DNA from: Astropecten irregularis
Lineage: Eukaryota > Echinodermata > Asteroidea > Paxillosida > Astropectinidae
Direction of reading: 5' to 3'
Assembly (NCBI GenBank): GCA_963971285.1
Contig: OZ020254.1
Span: 17,390,932-17,454,931, forward strand
DNA length: 64,000 nt
In this document: piece by piece, positions 872-63,988 of the stretch
Position numbering within the stretch: position 1 is the first letter of the stretch
Layout: each line of letters opens with the position of its first letter
Translations under genes and position numbers: made by a program
The notes under the pieces: generated by a model
Database searches by the model: none
The model's input: only the letters and a program-made list of their open reading frames with translations
What the model was told of the DNA's origin: nothing

Positions 872-51718
<50,847 letters not shown>

Positions 51719-53295: not shown

Positions 53296-53919
53296 GTGAT
53301 AATATACTGAGCCCTTTATTATTTTGTATCCTTTAATAATTATGGGGGGCTCAAAATATATTTCCTGTGTTTTTTGTTAAAAAACAAACACATTCAATAG
53401 GCCTACAGTTTTTTATCCCCGTTCTGTTTCTTTCTTGCTAGCGTTACATTACCATATTAAAATCTGGTTGATTGATATTTGCTGACTGCTTAATACAAGG
53501 CAGAGGAACACACCTGTTCTTCTCAGTTGGAATGTTAATTAACTAATTTTCACACTTATAAATTCACCGCCTGTGGGTTAGCTATACTATTATGAAGGGG
53601 CGTCGTAAGTTTGTTAAGCCACTGGGGCGGGCACATTTTCTTTGCCTTATCTTCCTTTTATACCACGACCCTCTACCAACACCAGTACCCACCTTCTATC
53701 TTAAACCCCCGGCCCGGCCCCCACCTGTACCTACCATCCACCATCGTAACTACATAATATGCCTGCTGAAGTTTATTGGGCTCGATGACACTGATATAAG
53801 CTTTTTAAACTTCTAAGAGAGCAGTCCGGTTTTTCCAATTTTCTTCGCTATCACTCACTCATCCCATGACCGGTCTGGTCGTCAGTCGGGGGGGGGGGGG
53901 GGGGGGGGTCTTGAGGGAT
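53296..53919. other. intergenic sequence, G-run at 53889-53907
   Basis: AT-rich with a short C-rich stretch (53700-53730) and a run of ~19 G. No gene is seen. Confidence 0.4.
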
Positions 53920-55129: not shown

Positions 55130-55398
55130 GGCTTTTTCGATTTCAATCGGAAAAGGTATTGTTTTTGTTCTGATTTTTGGCTTTTCCGATTTTAATCGGA
55201 AAAGGTATTGTTTTTGTTCTGATTTTTTTTTTTTTGGCTTTTCCATGTTCAATGGAAAAGGTATTGTTTTTGTTCTGATTTTTTTTTCTTTGGCTTTTTC
55301 GCGGAAGCGAAAAGCCTTTGTTTCTGTTCTGTTATTTTTTGGCTTTTTCGCGGAAGCGAAAAGCCTTTGTTTTTGTTCTGTTATTTTTTTTTTTTTCT
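55130..55398 (+). repeat. five tandem hairpin modules
   Basis: Starts at 55130, 55179, 55236, 55292 and 55341, each 49-57 bp. Each module is a stem-loop (for example ggcttttccgat / atcggaaaagg, or ggctttttcgc / gcgaaaagcc), then a T-rich tail with ttgtt(t/c)ttgttctg. A sixth module sits at 59958-60010. Confidence 0.9.
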
Positions 55399-56337
55399 TC
55401 CTCTTCTTGTCGCCAAAAACCCATAGACAAAGCACGGGGGTATTCTCGGAGCCACTTTTGTAATTTCTAAACAGTCAATCTTAACCAAACTTGGTCTGAA
55501 GGAAGTCCATATAGGGTAGTTGTCTCCCGAAACTTTTCGTCATCATGACGTCATGGAGTGTCACGTGACAATGCCTTAAAGGGGCAAATTTCACACATCA
55601 ATTATAAACGAACCCTAGGTCCGATTTGGTTGAAACTTGGTACGTATCTAAGGCGGGAAGTGTTAAAACAAAAAATTACAATTACGTCACCATGACATCA
55701 TCGTGTGTCACGTGACAACGTCTTAAATGGGCAAACTTCACTCATCAATTATAAACGAACTCTTGGTCTGATTGGATTGAAACTTTGTATGTGTCTAAGT
55801 CTTGAAGAGTTATATCGGAAATTTGCAATGACTTTATAGTGACGTCATCGAGTGTCACGTGACAACACCTTAAAGGAGCAAACTTTACACATAAATAATA
55901 AATGAACCCTAGGTCCGATTGAGTTGAAACTGGGTATGTATCCAAGTCGTGGAGTGTTATAACAAAAATAGGCAATGACGTCATCATGACGTCATCGTGC
56001 GTCAAATGACAATGCCTTAAAGTTGCAAACTTCGTACATCAATAATAAACGAACCCTAGGTCCGATTCGGTTGAAACTTGGTATGTATCTAAGTCGGGAA
56101 GAGTTTATATTTTTGTTTATAGGCCCTATGCAAACATTGTGTGTCACGTGACAGGGATTTAAAGGGGCAAACTTTATATGCCAATTAAGAATTAACAAAC
56201 CCTAGAAGAATTAGCTCCTCATTTAAAAGTAGTAAGAATGAGAATACAAATTTCTGAAGTAGCATCATATTAAGAAGGCTTTTTATATCATATGTGAAAA
56301 AGCCTTATGTGCTGTTTCCAACAGCCATAAACTCTAG
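55386..56337 (+). mobile_element. Helitron-like element, array copy 1
   Basis: Starts ttcttcctcttcttgtcgcc, ends with hairpin gctgtttccaacagc and then CTAG-T. Holds four to five 147-bp sub-repeats with GTCACGTGAC and TGACGTCA palindromes. No protein coding is seen. Confidence 0.6.
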
Positions 56338-57580
56338 TTTTTTTTTCTTCCTCTTCTTGTCGCCAAAAACCCATAGACAAAGCACGGGGGTATTCTCGGA
56401 GCCACTTTTGTAATTTCGAAACAGTCAATCTTAACCAAACTTGGTCTGAAGGAAGTCCATATAGGGTAGTTGTCTCCCGAAACTTTTCGTCATCATGACG
56501 TCATGGAGTGTCACGTGACAATGCCTTAAAGGGGCAAATTTCACACATCAATTATAAACGAACCCTAGGTCCGATTTGGTTGAAACTTGGTACGTATCTA
56601 AGGCGGGAAGTGTTAAAACAAAAAATTACAATTACGTCACCATGACATCATCGTGTGTCACGTGACAACGTCTTAAATGGGCAAACTTCACTCATCAATT
56701 ATAAACGAACCCTTGGTCTGATTGGATTGAAACTTTGTATGTGTCTAAGTCGTTAAGTGTTATATCGGAAATTTGCTATGACTTTATTGTGACGTCATCG
56801 AGTGTCACGTGACAACACCTTAAAGGGGCAAACTTCACACATAAATAATAAATTAACCCTAGGTCCGATTTGGTTGAAACTTGGTATGTATCTAAGTCGG
56901 GAAGTATTAAAACAAAAAAATGCAATTACGTCACCATGATATCATCGTGTGTCACGTGACAACGTCTTAAATGGGCAAACTTCACTCATCAATTGTAACG
57001 AACTCTTGGTCTGATTGGATTGAAACTTTGTATGTGTCTAAGTCTTGAAGAGTTATATCGGAAATTTGCAATGACTTTATTGTGACGTCATCGAGTGTCA
57101 CGTGACAACACCTTAAAGGAGCAAAGTTTACACATAAATAATAAATGAACCCTAGGTCCGATTGAGTTGAAACTGGGTATGTATCTAAGTCGTGGAGTGT
57201 TATAACAAAAATGGGCAATGACGTCATCATGACGTCATCGTGCGTCAAATGGCAGTGCCGTAAAGTTGCAAACTTCGTACATCAATAATAAACGAACCCT
57301 AGGTCCGATTCGGTTGAAACTTGGTATGTATCTAAGTCGGGAAGAGTTTATATTTTTGTTTATAGGCCCTATGCAAACATTGTGTGTCACGTGACAGGGA
57401 TTTAAAGGGGCAAACTTTATATGCCAATTAAGAATTAACAAACCCTAGAAGAATTAGCTCCTCATTTAAAAGTAGTAAGAATGAGAATACACATTTCTGA
57501 AGTAGCATCATATTAAGAAGGCTTTTTATATCATATGCGAAAAAGCCTTATGTGCTGTTTCCAAAAGCCATAAACTCTAG
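56338..57580 (+). mobile_element. Helitron-like element, array copy 2
   Basis: Nearly identical to copy 1 over shared parts but ~290 bp longer, equal to two extra 147-bp units. The terminal hairpin is weakened (gctgtttccaaaagc), then CTAG-T. Confidence 0.6.
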
Positions 57581-58780
57581 TTTCTTCTTCTTCTTCTTCT
57601 TCTTCTTCTTCTTCTTCTTCTTGTCGTTGGAATTCCTATAGACAAAGCACAGGAGCATTCTAGGTGGCACTTTGTCCACTTTTAAACTGCCGATTTTAAC
57701 CAAACTTGGTCAAAACAAAGTCCCTGTAGGGTAGTTGTGTGCGCAACATTTTCGCCATCGTGACGTCATCAGGTGTCACGTGACAGTGTCTTAAAGGGGC
57801 AAACTTCAGACATCAATTATGAACGAACCCTAAGTCCGATTGAGTTGAAACTTGGTATGTATCTAAGTCGGGAAGTGTTATATCGAAAAATTGCAATGAC
57901 GTCATCATGACGTCATTCCCTGATTTTTTATGATTTATTGAAATTTTGGGTTATTAAAGTTCTTTTAACGATATCTAGTAAACGAAACAAGATATCTTTG
58001 AATTTGTTTTTGATAATTCTTCAGCATACACCATAGATAAACACTGCATAGACAAAAATTCAGTGACGTCATCATGACGTCATAAAAAATGTGATTTTTA
58101 TAACACATAGTAGGAACGGCCGATGGCCTTGAAAATTGGTACATTGGTGAATTGGAGGTTCGGGGTTGTAATTATGAAGTTACATCAAGACAGCGTCATT
58201 TTTTTATTTTTTATGATTTTTTGAATATTTTTCACGCTATAGCCCATTGACTTGTACAGGGCAAACAGGAAGTAGCTCCTCATTTAAAAGTGGTAAGAGC
58301 TAGGATCATGATTCTTTCACCAAATATCAATGTTAGGCAAGGTCTTTCTTTGTGACACATTGCTTGACCTCTGTGACCTCTACTTCCGGTCAAACAGGAA
58401 GTAGCTCCTCATTTAAAAGTGGTTACAGCTATGATCATGATTCTTTCACCAAAAGTGAATGTTAGGCAATTTCCTTCATTTGTGTCACATTGCTTGACCT
58501 CTGTGACCTCTACTTCCGGTCAAACAGGAAGTAGCTCCTTATTTAAAAGTTGTAAGAGCTAGGATCATGATTCTTTCAGCAAAAGTAAATGTTAGGCAAG
58601 GTCTTTCCCTGTGACACAAACATGACCAAGTCAAGTGACTTCAGATTAAAGGTGCACTCTTCAAAAGTATAAAGTTTAATATCTTAATCAAATGTTTTTT
58701 GTGTATAATGTTTAGAAAAAATTTTAATATCATAAAACGGAAAAGCCATGTGTTCTGTTTTCAACAGACACAATATCTAG
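57581..58780 (+). mobile_element. Helitron-like element, array copy 3
   Basis: Opens with (TTC)n, then ttgtcgttggaattcctata. It ends ctgttttcaacag with tgt/aca flanks, then atatCTAG-T. The second half contains three ~125-bp units with ctacttccggtcaaacagga. Confidence 0.6.
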
Positions 58781-59956
58781 TTTCTTCTTCTTCTTCTTGT
58801 CGTATGAATTCCTATAGACAAAGCACATGTGCATTCTAGGTGCCACTTTTGCCACTTTTAAACTGCCGATTTTAATCAAACTTGGTCAAAACAAAGTCCC
58901 CACAGCGAAGTTGGTTGCCGAAACTTTTCGTCATCATGACGTCATCAGGTGTCACGTGACAGTGTCTTAAAGGGGCAAACTTCAGACATCAATTATGAAC
59001 GAACCCTATGTCTGATTGAGTTGAAACTTGGTATGTATCTAAGTCGGGAAGTGTTATATCGAAAAATTGCAATGACGTCATCATGACGTCATTCCCTGAT
59101 TTTTTATGATTTATTGAAATTTTGGGTCATTAAAGTTCTTTTAATGATATCTAGTAAATGAAACAAGATATCTTTGAATTTCTTTTTGATAATTCTTCAG
59201 CATACACCATAGATGAACACTGCATAGACAAAAATTCAGTGACGTCATCATGACGTCATAAAAAATGTGATTTTTATAACACATAGTAGGAACGGCCGAT
59301 GGCCTTGAAAATTGGTACATTGGTGAATTGGAGGTTCGGGGTTGTAATTATGAAGTTACATCAAGACAGCGTCATTTTTTTTTTTTTATGATTTTTTGAA
59401 TATTTTTCACGCTATAGCCCATTGACTTGTACAGGGCAAACAGGAAGTAGCTCCTCATTTAAAAGTGGTAAGAGCTAGGATCATGATTCTTTCACCAAAT
59501 ATCAATGTTAGGCAAGGTCTTTCTTTGTGACACATTGCTTGACCTCCGTGACCTCTACTTCCGGTCAAACAGGAAGTAGCTCCTCATTTAAAAGTGGTTA
59601 CAGCTATGATCATGATTCTTTCACCAAACGTGAATGTTAGGCAATTTCCTTCATTTGTGTCACATTGCTTGACCTCTGTGACCTCTACTTCCGGTCAAAC
59701 AGGAAGTAGCTCCTCATTTAAAAGTTGTAAGAGCTAGGATCATGATTCTTTCAGCAAAAGTAAATGTTAGGCAAGGTCTTTCCCTGTGACACAAACATGA
59801 CCAAGTCAAGTGACTTCAGATTAAAGGTGCACTCTCCAAAAGTATAAAGTTTAATATCTTAATCAAATGTTTTTTTGTGTATAATGTTTTGAAAAAATTT
59901 TAATATCATAAAACGGAAAAGCCATGTGTTCTGTTTTCAACAGACACAATATCTAG
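58781..59956 (+). mobile_element. Helitron-like element, array copy 4
   Basis: Same layout as copy 3 with few differences, so a recent duplication. Ends in the ctgttttcaacag hairpin and CTAG-T. Confidence 0.6.
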
Positions 59957-61188
59957 TTGGCTTTTCCATGTTCAATGGAAAAGGTATTGTTTTTGTTCTG
60001 ATTTTTTTTTCTTTTCTTCTTCTTCTTCTTGTCGTATGAATTCCTATAGACAAAGCACATGTGCATTCTAGGTGCCACTTAGGCCACTTTTAAAATGCCG
60101 ATTTTAATCAAACTTGGTCAAAACAAAGTCCCCACAGCGTAGTTGGTTGCCGAAACTTTTTGTCAACATGACGGCATCAGGTGTCACGTGACAGTGTATT
60201 AAAGGGGCAAACTTCAGACATCAATTATGAACGAACCCTAGGTCTGATTGAGTTGAAACTTGGTATGTATCTAAGTCGGGAAGTGTTATATCGAAAAATT
60301 GCAATGACGTCATGATGACGTCATTCCCTGATTTTTTATGATTTATTGAAATTTTGGGTCATTAAAGTTCTTTTAACGATATCTAGTAAACGAATCAAGA
60401 TATCTTTGAATTTCTTTTTGATAATTCTTCAGCATACACCATAGATGAACACTGCATAGACAAAAATTCAATGACGTCATCATGACGTCATAAAAAATGT
60501 GATTTTTATAACACATAGTAGGAACGGCCGATGGCCTTGAAAATTGGGACATTGGTGAATTGGAGGTTCAATATTGTAATTATGAAGTTACGTCAAGACA
60601 GCGTCATTTTTGTATTTTTTATGATTTTTTGAATATTTTTCACGCTATAGCCCATTGACTTGTACAGGGCAAACAGGAAGTAGCTCCCCATTTAAAAGTG
60701 GTAAGAGCTAGGATCATGATTCTTTCACCAAATATCAATGTTAGGCAATGTCTTTCTTTGTGACACATTGCTTGACCTCTGTGACCTCTACTTCCGGTCA
60801 AACAGGAAGTAGCTCCTCATTTAAAAGTAGTTACAGCTATGATCATGATTATTTCACCAAAAGTGAATGTAAGGCAATTTCCTTCATTTGTGTCACATCG
60901 CTTGACCTCTGTGACCTCTACTTCCGGTCAAACAGGAAGTAACTCCTCATTTAAAAGTTGTATGAGCTAGGATTATGATTCTTTCAGCAAAAGTAAATAT
61001 TAGGCAAGGTCTTTCCCTGTGACACAAACATGACCAAGTCAAGTGACTTCAGATTAAAGTTGCACTCTTAAAAAGTATAAAGCTTAATATCTTAATCAAA
61101 TGTTTTGTGTGTATAATGTTTTGAGAATTGTTTAATATCATAAAACGGAAAAGCCATGTGTTCTGTTTTCAACAGACACAATATCTAG
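59957..61188 (+). mobile_element. Helitron-like element, array copy 5 with a hairpin module at its start
   Basis: The junction CTAG-T is followed directly by the hairpin module (ggcttttccatgttcaatgg), then TTC-rich tract and body as in copies 3 and 4. Confidence 0.6.
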
Positions 61189-62782
61189 TTTCTTCTTCTT
61201 GTCGTTTGAGTTACCATAGACTTTTTCTAGGTGGCACTTTGGCTACTTTTAAATTGCCGATTTTCATCATACTTGGTCTGGAGGAAGTCCATATAGAGTA
61301 GTTGTCTCCCGAAACTTTTCATTGTCATGACGTCATCAGGTGTCACGTGACAGTGTCTTAAAGGGGCAAACTTCAGACATCAATTATGAACGAACCCTAA
61401 GTCTGATTGAGTTGAAACTTGGTATGTATCTAAGTCGGGAAGTGTTATATCGAAAATTTGCAATGACGTCATGATGACGTCATTCACAGATTTTTTATGA
61501 TTTATTGAAATTTTGGGTCATTAAAGTTCTTTTAACGATATCTAGTAAACGAAACAAGATATCTTTGAATTTCTTTTTGATAATTCTTCAGCATACACCA
61601 TAGATGAACACTGCATAGACAAAAATTCTGTGACGTCATCATGACGTCATAAAAAATGCGATTTTTATAACACATAGTAGGAACGGCCGATCGCCTCGAA
61701 AATTGGTAGGTGTGGGATTTGGAGGTTGGGGATCGTAATTATGAAGTTACGTCAAGACAGCGTGATCATTTGATTTTTTATGATTTTTTTAAATCTTTTT
61801 CACGCTAGCCCATTGACTTGTACAGAGCTAGCTCTGTACGTTGCATGTGCAACAATTTACTTAGACCGCTTTCAATGCATGGCGCCCTCTTTAGACGCTA
61901 GCTCATTGACTTGTACAGAGCTAGCTCTGTACGTTGCATGTGCAACAATTTACTTAGACCGCTTTCAATGCATGGCGCCCTCTTTGGATTAAAACAAGAA
62001 ACTGCGGTGGTGTCAGTACGTTATTTAAAAAAATCAACAAAAACGGTTTGAGATATTAAGTTGATTCTTTCACCAAACGTGATTATTATGCAGGGTGTTT
62101 CTGAGAGACACATTGCTTGACATCTATGACCTCTACTTCCGGTCAAACAGGAAGAAGCTCCTCATATAAAAGTGGTAAATCTCTTTTATGATTTTAATTC
62201 AATAATCAAAATCTTCAAAAATCAACACAAAATCAACGGTTTGAGATATTAAGTTGATTCTTTCACCAAAAGTGACTGTTAGGCAGGGTCTTTCTTTGTG
62301 ACTCACTGCTTGACCTCTGTGACCTCTACTTCCGGTCAAACAGGGAGTAGCTCCTCATTTAAAAGTGGTAAGAGCTAGGATCATGATTCTTTCACTAAAT
62401 ATCAATGTTAGGCAATGTCTTTCTTTGTGACACATTGCTTGACCTCTGTGACCTCTACTTCCGGTAAAACCGGAAGTAGCTCCTCATTTAAGAGTGTTAA
62501 GAGCCAGGATCATGATTCTTTCACCAAATGTCAATGTTAGGCAAAGTCTTTCTTTGTGACACATTGCTTGACCTCTGTGACCTCTACTTCCGGTCAAACA
62601 GGAAGTAGTTTGCCATTTAAAAGTTGTAAGAGCTGGGATCATGATTTTTTTTTCATTTGTCCCATTGAGGGATCCATTTCTTTAATATAATATTTAAAAG
62701 CATATTATATATCTATAAATCCATTTAAAATACCATATGCGGAAAAGCCTTATGCGCTGTTTCTAACAGCCATAAACTCTAG
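61189..62782 (+). mobile_element. Helitron-like element, array copy 6, longest
   Basis: 1,594 bp. Carries a private 93-bp tandem duplication (61804-61989) and more ~129-bp units. Ends in a hairpin (gctgtttctaacagc) and CTAG-T. Confidence 0.6.
61804..61989. repeat. 93-bp tandem duplication with 20-bp palindrome
   Basis: Each half contains the perfect palindrome GTACAGAGCTAGCTCTGTAC (61820-61839 and 61913-61932) and ttgcatgtgcaa. The two halves are almost identical. Confidence 0.9.
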
Positions 62783-63988
62783 TTTTTCTTTTTTCTTCTT
62801 CTTCTTCTTGTCGTTTGAGTTACCATAGACTTTTTCTAGATGGCACTTTGGCTACTTTTAAATTGCCGATTTTAACCAAACTTGGTCTGAAGGAAGTCCA
62901 TGTAGGGTAGTTGTGTCCCGAAACTTTTCGTCATCATGACGTCATTAGGTGTCATGTGACCAGCGATTTGAATTTAATAATCAAAATCTTCAAAAATCAA
63001 CAAAAAATCAACGGTTTGAGATATTAAGTTCATTCTTTCACCAATAGTGATTGTTAGGCAGGGTCTTTCTTTGTGACACATTGCTTGACCTCTGTGACCT
63101 CTACTTCCGGTCAAACAGGAAGTAGCTCCTCATTTAAAAGTGGTAAGAGCTATGATCATAATTCTTTCACCAAAAGTGAATGTTAGGCAAGGTCTTTCTG
63201 TGTGACACATTGCTTGACCTCTGTGACCTCTACTTCCGGTCAAACAGGAAGTAGCTCCTCATTTAAAAGTGGTAAGAGCTATGATCATAATTCTTTCACC
63301 AAAAGTGAATGTTAGGCAAGGTCTTTCTGTGTGACACATTGGTTGACCCCTGTGACCTCTACTTCCGGTCAAACAGGAAGTAGCTCCTCATTTAAAAGTG
63401 GTAAGAGCTATGATCATAATTCTTTCACCAAAAGTGAATGTTAGGCAAGGTCTTTCTGTGTGACACATTGCTTGACCTCTGTGACCTCTACTTCCGGTCA
63501 AACAGGAAGTAGCTCCTCATTTAAAAGTGGTAAGAGCTATGGTCATGATTCTTTCACCAATAAACAATGTTAGCGAAGGTCCTTCATTTGTGACACATTG
63601 CTTGACCTCTGTGACCTCTACTTCTGGTTAAACAGGAAGTAGCTTCTGATTTAAAAGTGGTACGAGCTATGATCATGATTCTTTAACCAAAAGTCAATGT
63701 TAGGCAAGGTCTTTCATTGTGACACATTGCTTGACCTCTGTGACCTCTACTTCTGGTTAAACAGGAAGTAGCTTCTGATTTAAAAGTGGTACGAGCTATG
63801 ATCATGATTCTTTAACCAAAAGTCAATGTTAGGCAAGGTCTTTCATTTGTGTTACATTGCTTGACCTCTGTGACCTCTACTTAATGTCTTAATTAAACAA
63901 AATACGTGATGTGTATTAATTTGAGAAATATTTTATATCATTATGCGGAAAAGCCATGTGTTCTGTTTTCAACAGACACAACCTCTAG
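62783..63988 (+). mobile_element. Helitron-like element, array copy 7
   Basis: TTC-rich start, truncated front body, then about seven 129-bp units, then ctgttttcaacag hairpin and CTAG-T. The sequence after it (tatacaatatt) is not TTC-rich, so the array may end here. Confidence 0.6.
63040..63890. repeat. 129-bp tandem repeat
   Basis: cttccggtcaaacagg recurs at 63104, 63233, 63362 and 63491 (period 129) and continues with degenerate copies. Each unit has the inverted repeat ctacttcc / ggaagtag. Confidence 0.92.

Follow-up and report, generated by a model that had tools for sequence, protein, structure and literature searches.

Stacked hairpin modules in Astropecten irregularis as probable 5′ termini of Helentron/HINE-type rolling-circle transposons

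In the parts of the published description used here, Helentron, HINE, and DINE-1 elements carry palindromic subterminal repeats (subTIRs) at the 5′ end and about 40 bp from the 3′ end, and the combination of Rep, helicase, and endonuclease is the mark of Helentrons (PMC4067079). In Fusarium oxysporum, the Helitron2 element FoHeli has several 5′ termini on one 3′ terminus, with self-insertion as the proposed cause, and transposition of Fusarium Helitrons from the outermost 5′ end to the first 3′ end has been proposed (parts of PMC5148889). The canonical Helitron (Helitron1) starts with TC, inserts between A and T, and ends with CTRR after a short hairpin.

Here we describe an array of hairpin modules in the asteroid Astropecten irregularis. 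The array lies in a stretch of 64,000 nucleotides of contig OZ020254.1, the whole of which was analyzed and is called the window below. The elements involved resemble Helentron, HINE, and DINE-1 in the subTIRs, a 3′ palindrome, an apparent TT target with a variable number of T residues, internal tandem repeats, and a Rep/helicase/endonuclease partner; they differ from those elements, as far as the description used covers them, in that 1 to 13 hairpins stand on one 5′ end, often from several families, and in the CTAG at the 3′ end (PMC4067079). Relative to the ends, Rep is encoded on the minus strand, an arrangement that the same source gives for Helentron-Da-40. Unlike Helitron1, the elements start at a hairpin after TT. 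Their 3′ CTAG, in contrast, is like that of Helitron1, a point against the Helentron/HINE assignment; it follows a hairpin in all 42 ends listed, which were found with a pattern that included CTAG.

The likeness to FoHeli consists of the 5′ terminal hairpins, the inverted repeat near the 3′ end, and the multiplicity of 5′ termini. In the part of PMC5148889 used, FoHeli shows duplication or combination of 5′ sequences 31 to 85 nt long, whereas up to 13 hairpins from at least three families with their own 3′ ends occur here, alongside trains of bodies. Cg_HINE of the Pacific oyster shares satellite-like internal arrays, a 5′ subTIR with a complementary repeat, a 3′ subTIR plus palindrome, and the preference for TT; unlike the present case, stacked 5′ hairpins are not found in the portion of its description used (PMC7492417). 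Multiple 5′ termini are thus already known from Fusarium, while the scale and the family mixing observed here look new; no report of long multi-family stacks of 5′ hairpins was found in searches of open-licence papers. We consider it very probable that the modules are the 5′ termini, that is, the palindromic subterminal repeats, of Helentron/HINE-type rolling-circle transposons, stacked in the way described below.

Hairpin modules and tandem bodies in the window

The array consists of five modules of 49–58 bp each (Table 1), in which a hairpin of 25–28 nt is followed by a T-rich tail, e.g. ATTGTTTTTGTTCTGATTTTT and then a T-run. These modules, recognized in the initial annotation from the letters of the DNA, are real, and a sixth one with 100% identity to module 3 was found farther to the right. 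The motif GGCTTTT..AAAAG gives 13 matches at nine places on both strands of the 64-kb window, against 0.54 expected. Folded as single-stranded DNA, the five hairpins have energies of −6.1 to −9.6 kcal/mol and z values of −2.2 to −6.7.

The details of the pairing should be noted, since the annotation had stressed that both arms of the stems change together. Paired changes are indeed present, with corrections. The right arm in modules 1–3 is GGAAAAGGT, so that the outermost pair is G-T and the second position is an unpaired G-G. The stem of module 1 contains one T-G pair, a one-sided change. Modules 4 and 5 have one unpaired T each, and their hairpins are identical, the tails alone being different. 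With these corrections, the covariation within the window rests on four distinct hairpins.

Table 1 Positions of the hairpin modules and the tandem bodies in the window
Feature	Coordinates	Strand	Description
Module 1	55130..55178	+	Type A 5′ terminal hairpin and T-rich tail; left edge of the composite; preceding flank ...ATAATT
Module 2	55179..55235	+	Type B hairpin
Module 3	55236..55291	+	Type Cm hairpin (CCAT/ATGG)
Module 4	55292..55340	+	Type D hairpin
Module 5	55341..55398	+	Type D hairpin; innermost; T-run continues into body 1
Sixth module	59959..60013 (match to module 3, 59957–60014)	+	Type Cm hairpin; exactly between bodies 4 and 5 (tandem elements)
Body 1	55399..56337	+	147 bp internal tandem repeats; type ii 3′ end (subTIR, hairpin, and CTAG at 56334–56337)
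Body 2	56338..57580	+	Starts with pyrimidine run and TTGTCG, without own hairpin; type ii 3′ end; CTAG at 57577
Body 3	57581..58780	+	130 bp internal repeats; CTAG at 58777
Body 4	58781..59956	+	CTAG at 59953
Body 5	60014..61188	+	CTAG at 61185
Body 6	61189..62782	+	Type ii 3′ end; CTAG at 62779
Body 7	62783..63988	+	Type iv 3′ end; CTAG at 63985, then TTATACAATATT at the end of the window

To the right of the array, seven bodies of about 0.94–1.6 kb each are directly seen in head-to-tail order, with internal tandem repeats of 147 or about 130 bp. The bodies start with a pyrimidine run and TTGTCG and have no hairpin of their own except where a module sits. Their 3′ ends are composed of GGAAAAGCC (or AAAAAGCC), a short hairpin, CTAG, and then T. 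The outer arm of the hairpins had been said to recur before the 3′ ends of the neighboring elements; this holds in the form of GGAAAAGCC at five of the seven ends, and the other two carry GGCTTTTT..AAAAAGCC. Together with the 5′ subTIR, the complementary 3′ repeat GGAAAAGCC is placed as in Helentron/HINE elements, 34–42 nt from the CTAG end (e.g. 58739–58747 versus 58780) and slightly nearer to it than the published 38–60 bp. A short palindrome near the 3′ end is also present, CTGTTTTCAACAG, which stops 13 nt short of the CTAG end in the window.

Bodies 1 (55388–56340) and 2 (56338–57583) are alike in their start and end stretches at 97–99% identity, and this likeness suggests a recent copy or a tandem duplication. 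In body 6, a 93 bp unit containing the palindrome AGAGCTAGCTCT is present twice (61802–61985, 98% match).

Other features of the window are as follows. An ORF at 14482–14985 on the minus strand matches cilia and flagella associated protein 46 (9ijj_A, E 1.6e-05), and the left part of the window probably holds exons of the gene for this protein. A 28 bp unit that contains the palindrome GAAAACATATGTTTTC occurs in 17 tandem copies at 48295–48762, and long poly-G runs are found at 53888–53908 and 36079–36118. At 18338–18755, an 83 bp unit in five tandem copies contains GGATTCGAACCCACAATCTGTAGATTG, which we take to resemble part of a tRNA.

Module boundaries, cognate 3′ ends, and the autonomous partner

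A search of the same genome (475.7 Mb) with the array as query gave 2022 candidates, of which 40 were scored, with 58 matches; the counts below rest on these best-scoring copies (40 of 2022). Profiles of four 5′ families (GGC, F1, F2, and F3) and three 3′ families were scanned over 290,302 bases at 40 loci, comprising the window, the DNA around the scored places, and one longer locus on C16. Eight loci (L001–L008) that duplicate the window or larger loci are left out of all counts. The scan detected 281 modules in 66 arrays. All four 5′ families share the plan of a hairpin plus a T-rich tail. The GGC hairpins are divided into types A, B, B2, C, Cm, D, and Dc, and the arms are AGCTGTTTCGC..GCGGAACAGCT in F1, AGGTGTTCGG..CCGAACACCT in F2, and GGGTTTTCCGC..GCGAAAACCC in F3.

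The left edges of the arrays coincide with module starts in 65 of 66 cases (model position 1 in 59 and position 2 in six). TT directly precedes 60 of the 66 arrays, including 34 of the 40 that do not adjoin a CTAG; after CTAG, the base is usually T, to be set beside the insertion of Helentron/HINE elements at TT without target duplication. By eye, short module pieces stand ahead of the first full module in five arrays (L009 4065, L011, L015 372, L030, and L044), and thus not all left edges are clean. Such fragments would be expected if the array were a hairpin minisatellite, in which one original terminus was multiplied by replication slippage or unequal exchange at the T-runs, unrelated to transposition. 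The near-uniform start at a module boundary argues against this explanation, which we return to below with the nested elements.

If the hairpin is a 5′ subterminal repeat, the complement of its 5′ arm is expected just before the 3′ hairpin and CTAG. Outside the modules, the complement of the F1 arm occurs twice and that of the F2 arm three times in the 290 kb; one mismatch was allowed, and all five are exact. All of them precede an 8 bp hairpin followed by CTAG (four) or CTAT (one, an F1 case), and these 8 bp stems are the 3′ hairpins of F1 and F2. The 3′ ends of the GGC family, GGAAAAGCC..CTGTTTTCAACAG..CTAG, number 42, with up to seven substitutions allowed in the CTAG-containing pattern.

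The cognate ends can be observed directly in the length of the arm matches. Exact matches between an arm and its own 3′ end extend over 11 nt in C, 11 nt in D (one variant end), 11 nt in F1, and 12 nt in F2; in 12,600 comparisons with shuffled ends, every match was shorter than 11 nt. The F1 and F2 arms match the 3′ ends of other families over at most 8 nt. For the GGC arms, the matches with the common 3′ ends are 7 nt in A and 10 nt in B, and the D arm matches the common type ii end over 7 nt, followed by a T-G pair. Judging from these sequences, GGC arms are not specific to their own 3′ ends within the family. The first body has a type ii 3′ end in 15 of the 17 arrays with D or Dc as the innermost hairpin and in two of the 20 with other types (3′ matches below 28 bits left out); the Fisher p value of 1.7e-6 includes related copies, and p values of this kind overstate independence.

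A separate 3′ end of F3 was not found among the 22 complements of its arm outside the modules; 19 of them have a hairpin and CTAG, and all 14 matches listed are a GGC-family repeat with one mismatch. F3 may be a relative of GGC. Four loci (L020, L022, L027, and L028) have a body in common, which starts at about TATTTTTTTTGAGTTTGTGCTGTGGCCCATAGACTTTGTACAC just after GGC 3′ ends and perhaps represents another Helentron family.

The shared terminal signal suggested in the initial annotation has taken shape here: the same arm recurs as the 3′ subterminal repeat, in accordance with the modules being transposon 5′ termini.

Helitron_like_N has 149 matches in this genome, many of them in frames longer than 3000 aa. 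The minus-strand ORF of 3129 aa on C16 (16947750–16957136) contains Helitron_like_N, PIF1 helicase, and Exo_endo_phos domains (2850 aa scanned). It is flanked by the CTAG of the preceding element (16941964) and by a GGC-type 3′ end at 16968632–16968661, after which other DNA follows. No useful result came from looking for ends of different types in 26.5 kb at C16, and no 5′ end in the form of one hairpin joined to a body was obtained for an autonomous copy. The Helentron ORF (L061 1350–9899, minus strand) also has matches to OTU protease and Herpes_teg_N, located upstream of Rep.

The 3′ end of the autonomous element (363 bp) was used as a query and gave 57 matches, which were merged into 38 places with two short matches not reaching the 3′ end left out. 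Thirty of the 38 places, some of which look like tandem copies of each other, have Rep 7.9–19.9 kb upstream on the opposite strand, and the distance is 7.8–10.3 kb in 23 of the 30. For the 33 places on contigs of known size and 125 of the 149 Rep matches (the lower 24 omitted), 28 were observed, whereas randomly placed matches averaged 0.2 and never exceeded 3. The Rep, helicase, and endonuclease domains in one ORF at C16 and the nearness of Rep to the shared 3′ end at these places are as in the partner of Helentron/HINE elements; the autonomous partner (Rep, PIF1 helicase, and endonuclease) carries the same 3′ end as the array elements.

Pairing between and within hairpin types

Eight consensus hairpins were aligned by hand from templates, with column 8 blank in D, F2, and F3. 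Their arms pair in 81 of 85 cells, while 20,000 shuffles of the 3′ letters gave a maximum of 77 and a mean of 68.8. The four exceptions are all G-G, found at the second position of A, B, C, and Cm. Across the eight hairpins, both partners have changed in five pairs.

Contrarily, within the types, 62 one-sided and only two two-sided changes are found among 810 cells in 77 distinct hairpins, after exclusion of the nine of 281 modules with more than five changes from any template. The one-sided changes comprise 44 that break the pair, 16 to G-T, and two to Watson-Crick pairs, and about 1.3 two-sided changes are expected by chance (hand arithmetic from the within-type rates). Paired positions are changed in 66 of 1620 cases and unpaired positions in 38 of 444. 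Hence, the proposal of the initial annotation that the stem is selected as a structure is supported between module types and not within them: the gathered genomic copies have an excess of paired changes between types, and the arms change independently of each other within types, which is a refuting outcome named in the annotation.

The sharing of variants should be noted. For variants that occur at two or more places (L012, L014, and L041 counted as one place), all four changed cells are still paired, as against 16 of the 60 changed cells of singletons, suggesting that pairing is kept in the lineages that spread and lost in the copies that sit. Such a stem pattern agrees with a structure on which transposition depends, and does not fit one that serves the host where the copy lies.

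A small structured RNA or a transcription terminator kept by the host would also have the shape of a hairpin followed by a T-run. This reading is highly improbable, since no Rfam family reaches the gathering score over the array, individual copies freely lose their pairing, and a matching arm is located at the far 3′ end in three families. The small structured RNA put forward in the annotation is unsupported for the first two reasons, and the matched stem changes most likely mark different element families rather than a host RNA.

Another explanation is that hairpin-templated correction during the copying of single-stranded intermediates brings the two arms into agreement by a single mutational event, with no role for selection. 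Unpaired intermediates would then be unnecessary, and the few two-sided events, with a two-sided C-G to T-A variant common to L022 and L035, agree with such a process. However, 44 broken cells in distinct hairpins are left uncorrected, and the distal 3′ repeat of F1 and F2, which is far outside the hairpin and cannot be altered by correction within it, matches the same arm. We therefore regard templated correction as improbable. Under the transposon-terminus reading, the stems would covary since each active family or subfamily has its own matched set of 5′ arm, 3′ arm, and distal 3′ repeat; pairing would be kept only while a lineage moves, and dead copies would decay arm by arm.

Nested elements and the proposed growth of the arrays

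Nesting is directly observed in two loci, L010 and L019. Each has an F1 hairpin, then a GGC unit with a single 3′ end and CTAG (six hairpins in L010 and five in L019), and directly after it an F1 body with the F1 3′ end. The two F1 bodies are 91% identical over 249 nt from just after the CTAG and 83% over 415 nt. Uninterrupted F1 copies are also directly observed: the insert-free join of F1 hairpin and body aligns over 1–207 of 209 at 38 of 40 scored places, and one of the two remaining places is L019 itself. The insert and the uninterrupted copies together indicate that a GGC unit with several hairpins lies within the T-run immediately inside the start of F1. Where neighbors are mixed, F1 or F2 is outside GGC in 14 of 14 cases at loci picked with the GGC-array query, a choice that biases both the array length and this F1/F2-outermost order; three of the F2 cases are neighboring places on C27.

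The numbers of GGC hairpins and 3′ ends are six and one in L010, six and seven in the window, and six and six in the C16 locus. A balanced-bracket model with one hairpin per 3′ end was rejected; it fits C16 and nearly fits the window, but is broken by L010 and also by L017 (five hairpins and two ends) if the right flank of the latter is unique. The unequal counts suggest that arrays would have to move as units or lose bodies.

Neighboring modules are of the same type in 62 of 172 cases (L041 left out), as compared with a mean of 37 and a maximum of 57 in pooled shuffles; shuffles within arrays reach 62 in 90 of 2000. In L016, two adjacent F1 copies have private changes in common. The excess of same-type neighbors and these private changes indicate that local duplication contributes. 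Both observations, and runs such as D D and F2 F2 F2 F2, are also what the minisatellite explanation predicts. Slippage or unequal exchange as the whole origin is nevertheless unlikely, because families with 3′ ends of their own are mixed in the arrays, a solitary, identical copy of module 3 stands at a second element junction in the window, and whole multi-hairpin units are found inside F1 elements.

We thus prefer stacking by transposition, with the following steps. A module would be a 5′ terminus composed of a palindromic subterminal repeat, about 20 nt of subterminal sequence, and a T-run, with the 5′ arm of the hairpin complementary to the repeat before the 3′ hairpin and CTAG at the far end. 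The folded hairpin may be what Rep recognizes. New copies would enter at TT, in many cases within the T-run immediately behind the 5′ hairpin of another element, so that the older hairpin would come to lie to the left of the insert and a hairpin-less body with the pyrimidine run and TTGTCG to its right. With repeated insertion, hairpins would accumulate at the left and bodies lacking them at the right, as in the window. We infer that copying runs from the outermost hairpin to the first 3′ end; if so, the stack would travel as one unit and the array would grow, with local duplication adding further copies.

A further idea, possible though doubtful, is that the arrays are working multi-start platforms, from which a non-autonomous element could be launched by the Rep of any stacked family. 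Self-insertion would then be a ratchet that widens the range of helpers, not just a source of debris.

The covarying hairpin array can be explained as transposon anatomy, and such arrays form a natural archive of the insertions of one rolling-circle family into another. The three parts that match, namely the 5′ arm, the 3′ arm, and the distal 3′ repeat, suggest what a Rep protein must see. The comparison of paired changes in source elements with unpaired decay in dead copies separates selection for transposition from selection by the host. The stacked starts, if functional, would be a way for non-autonomous elements to exploit several helpers.
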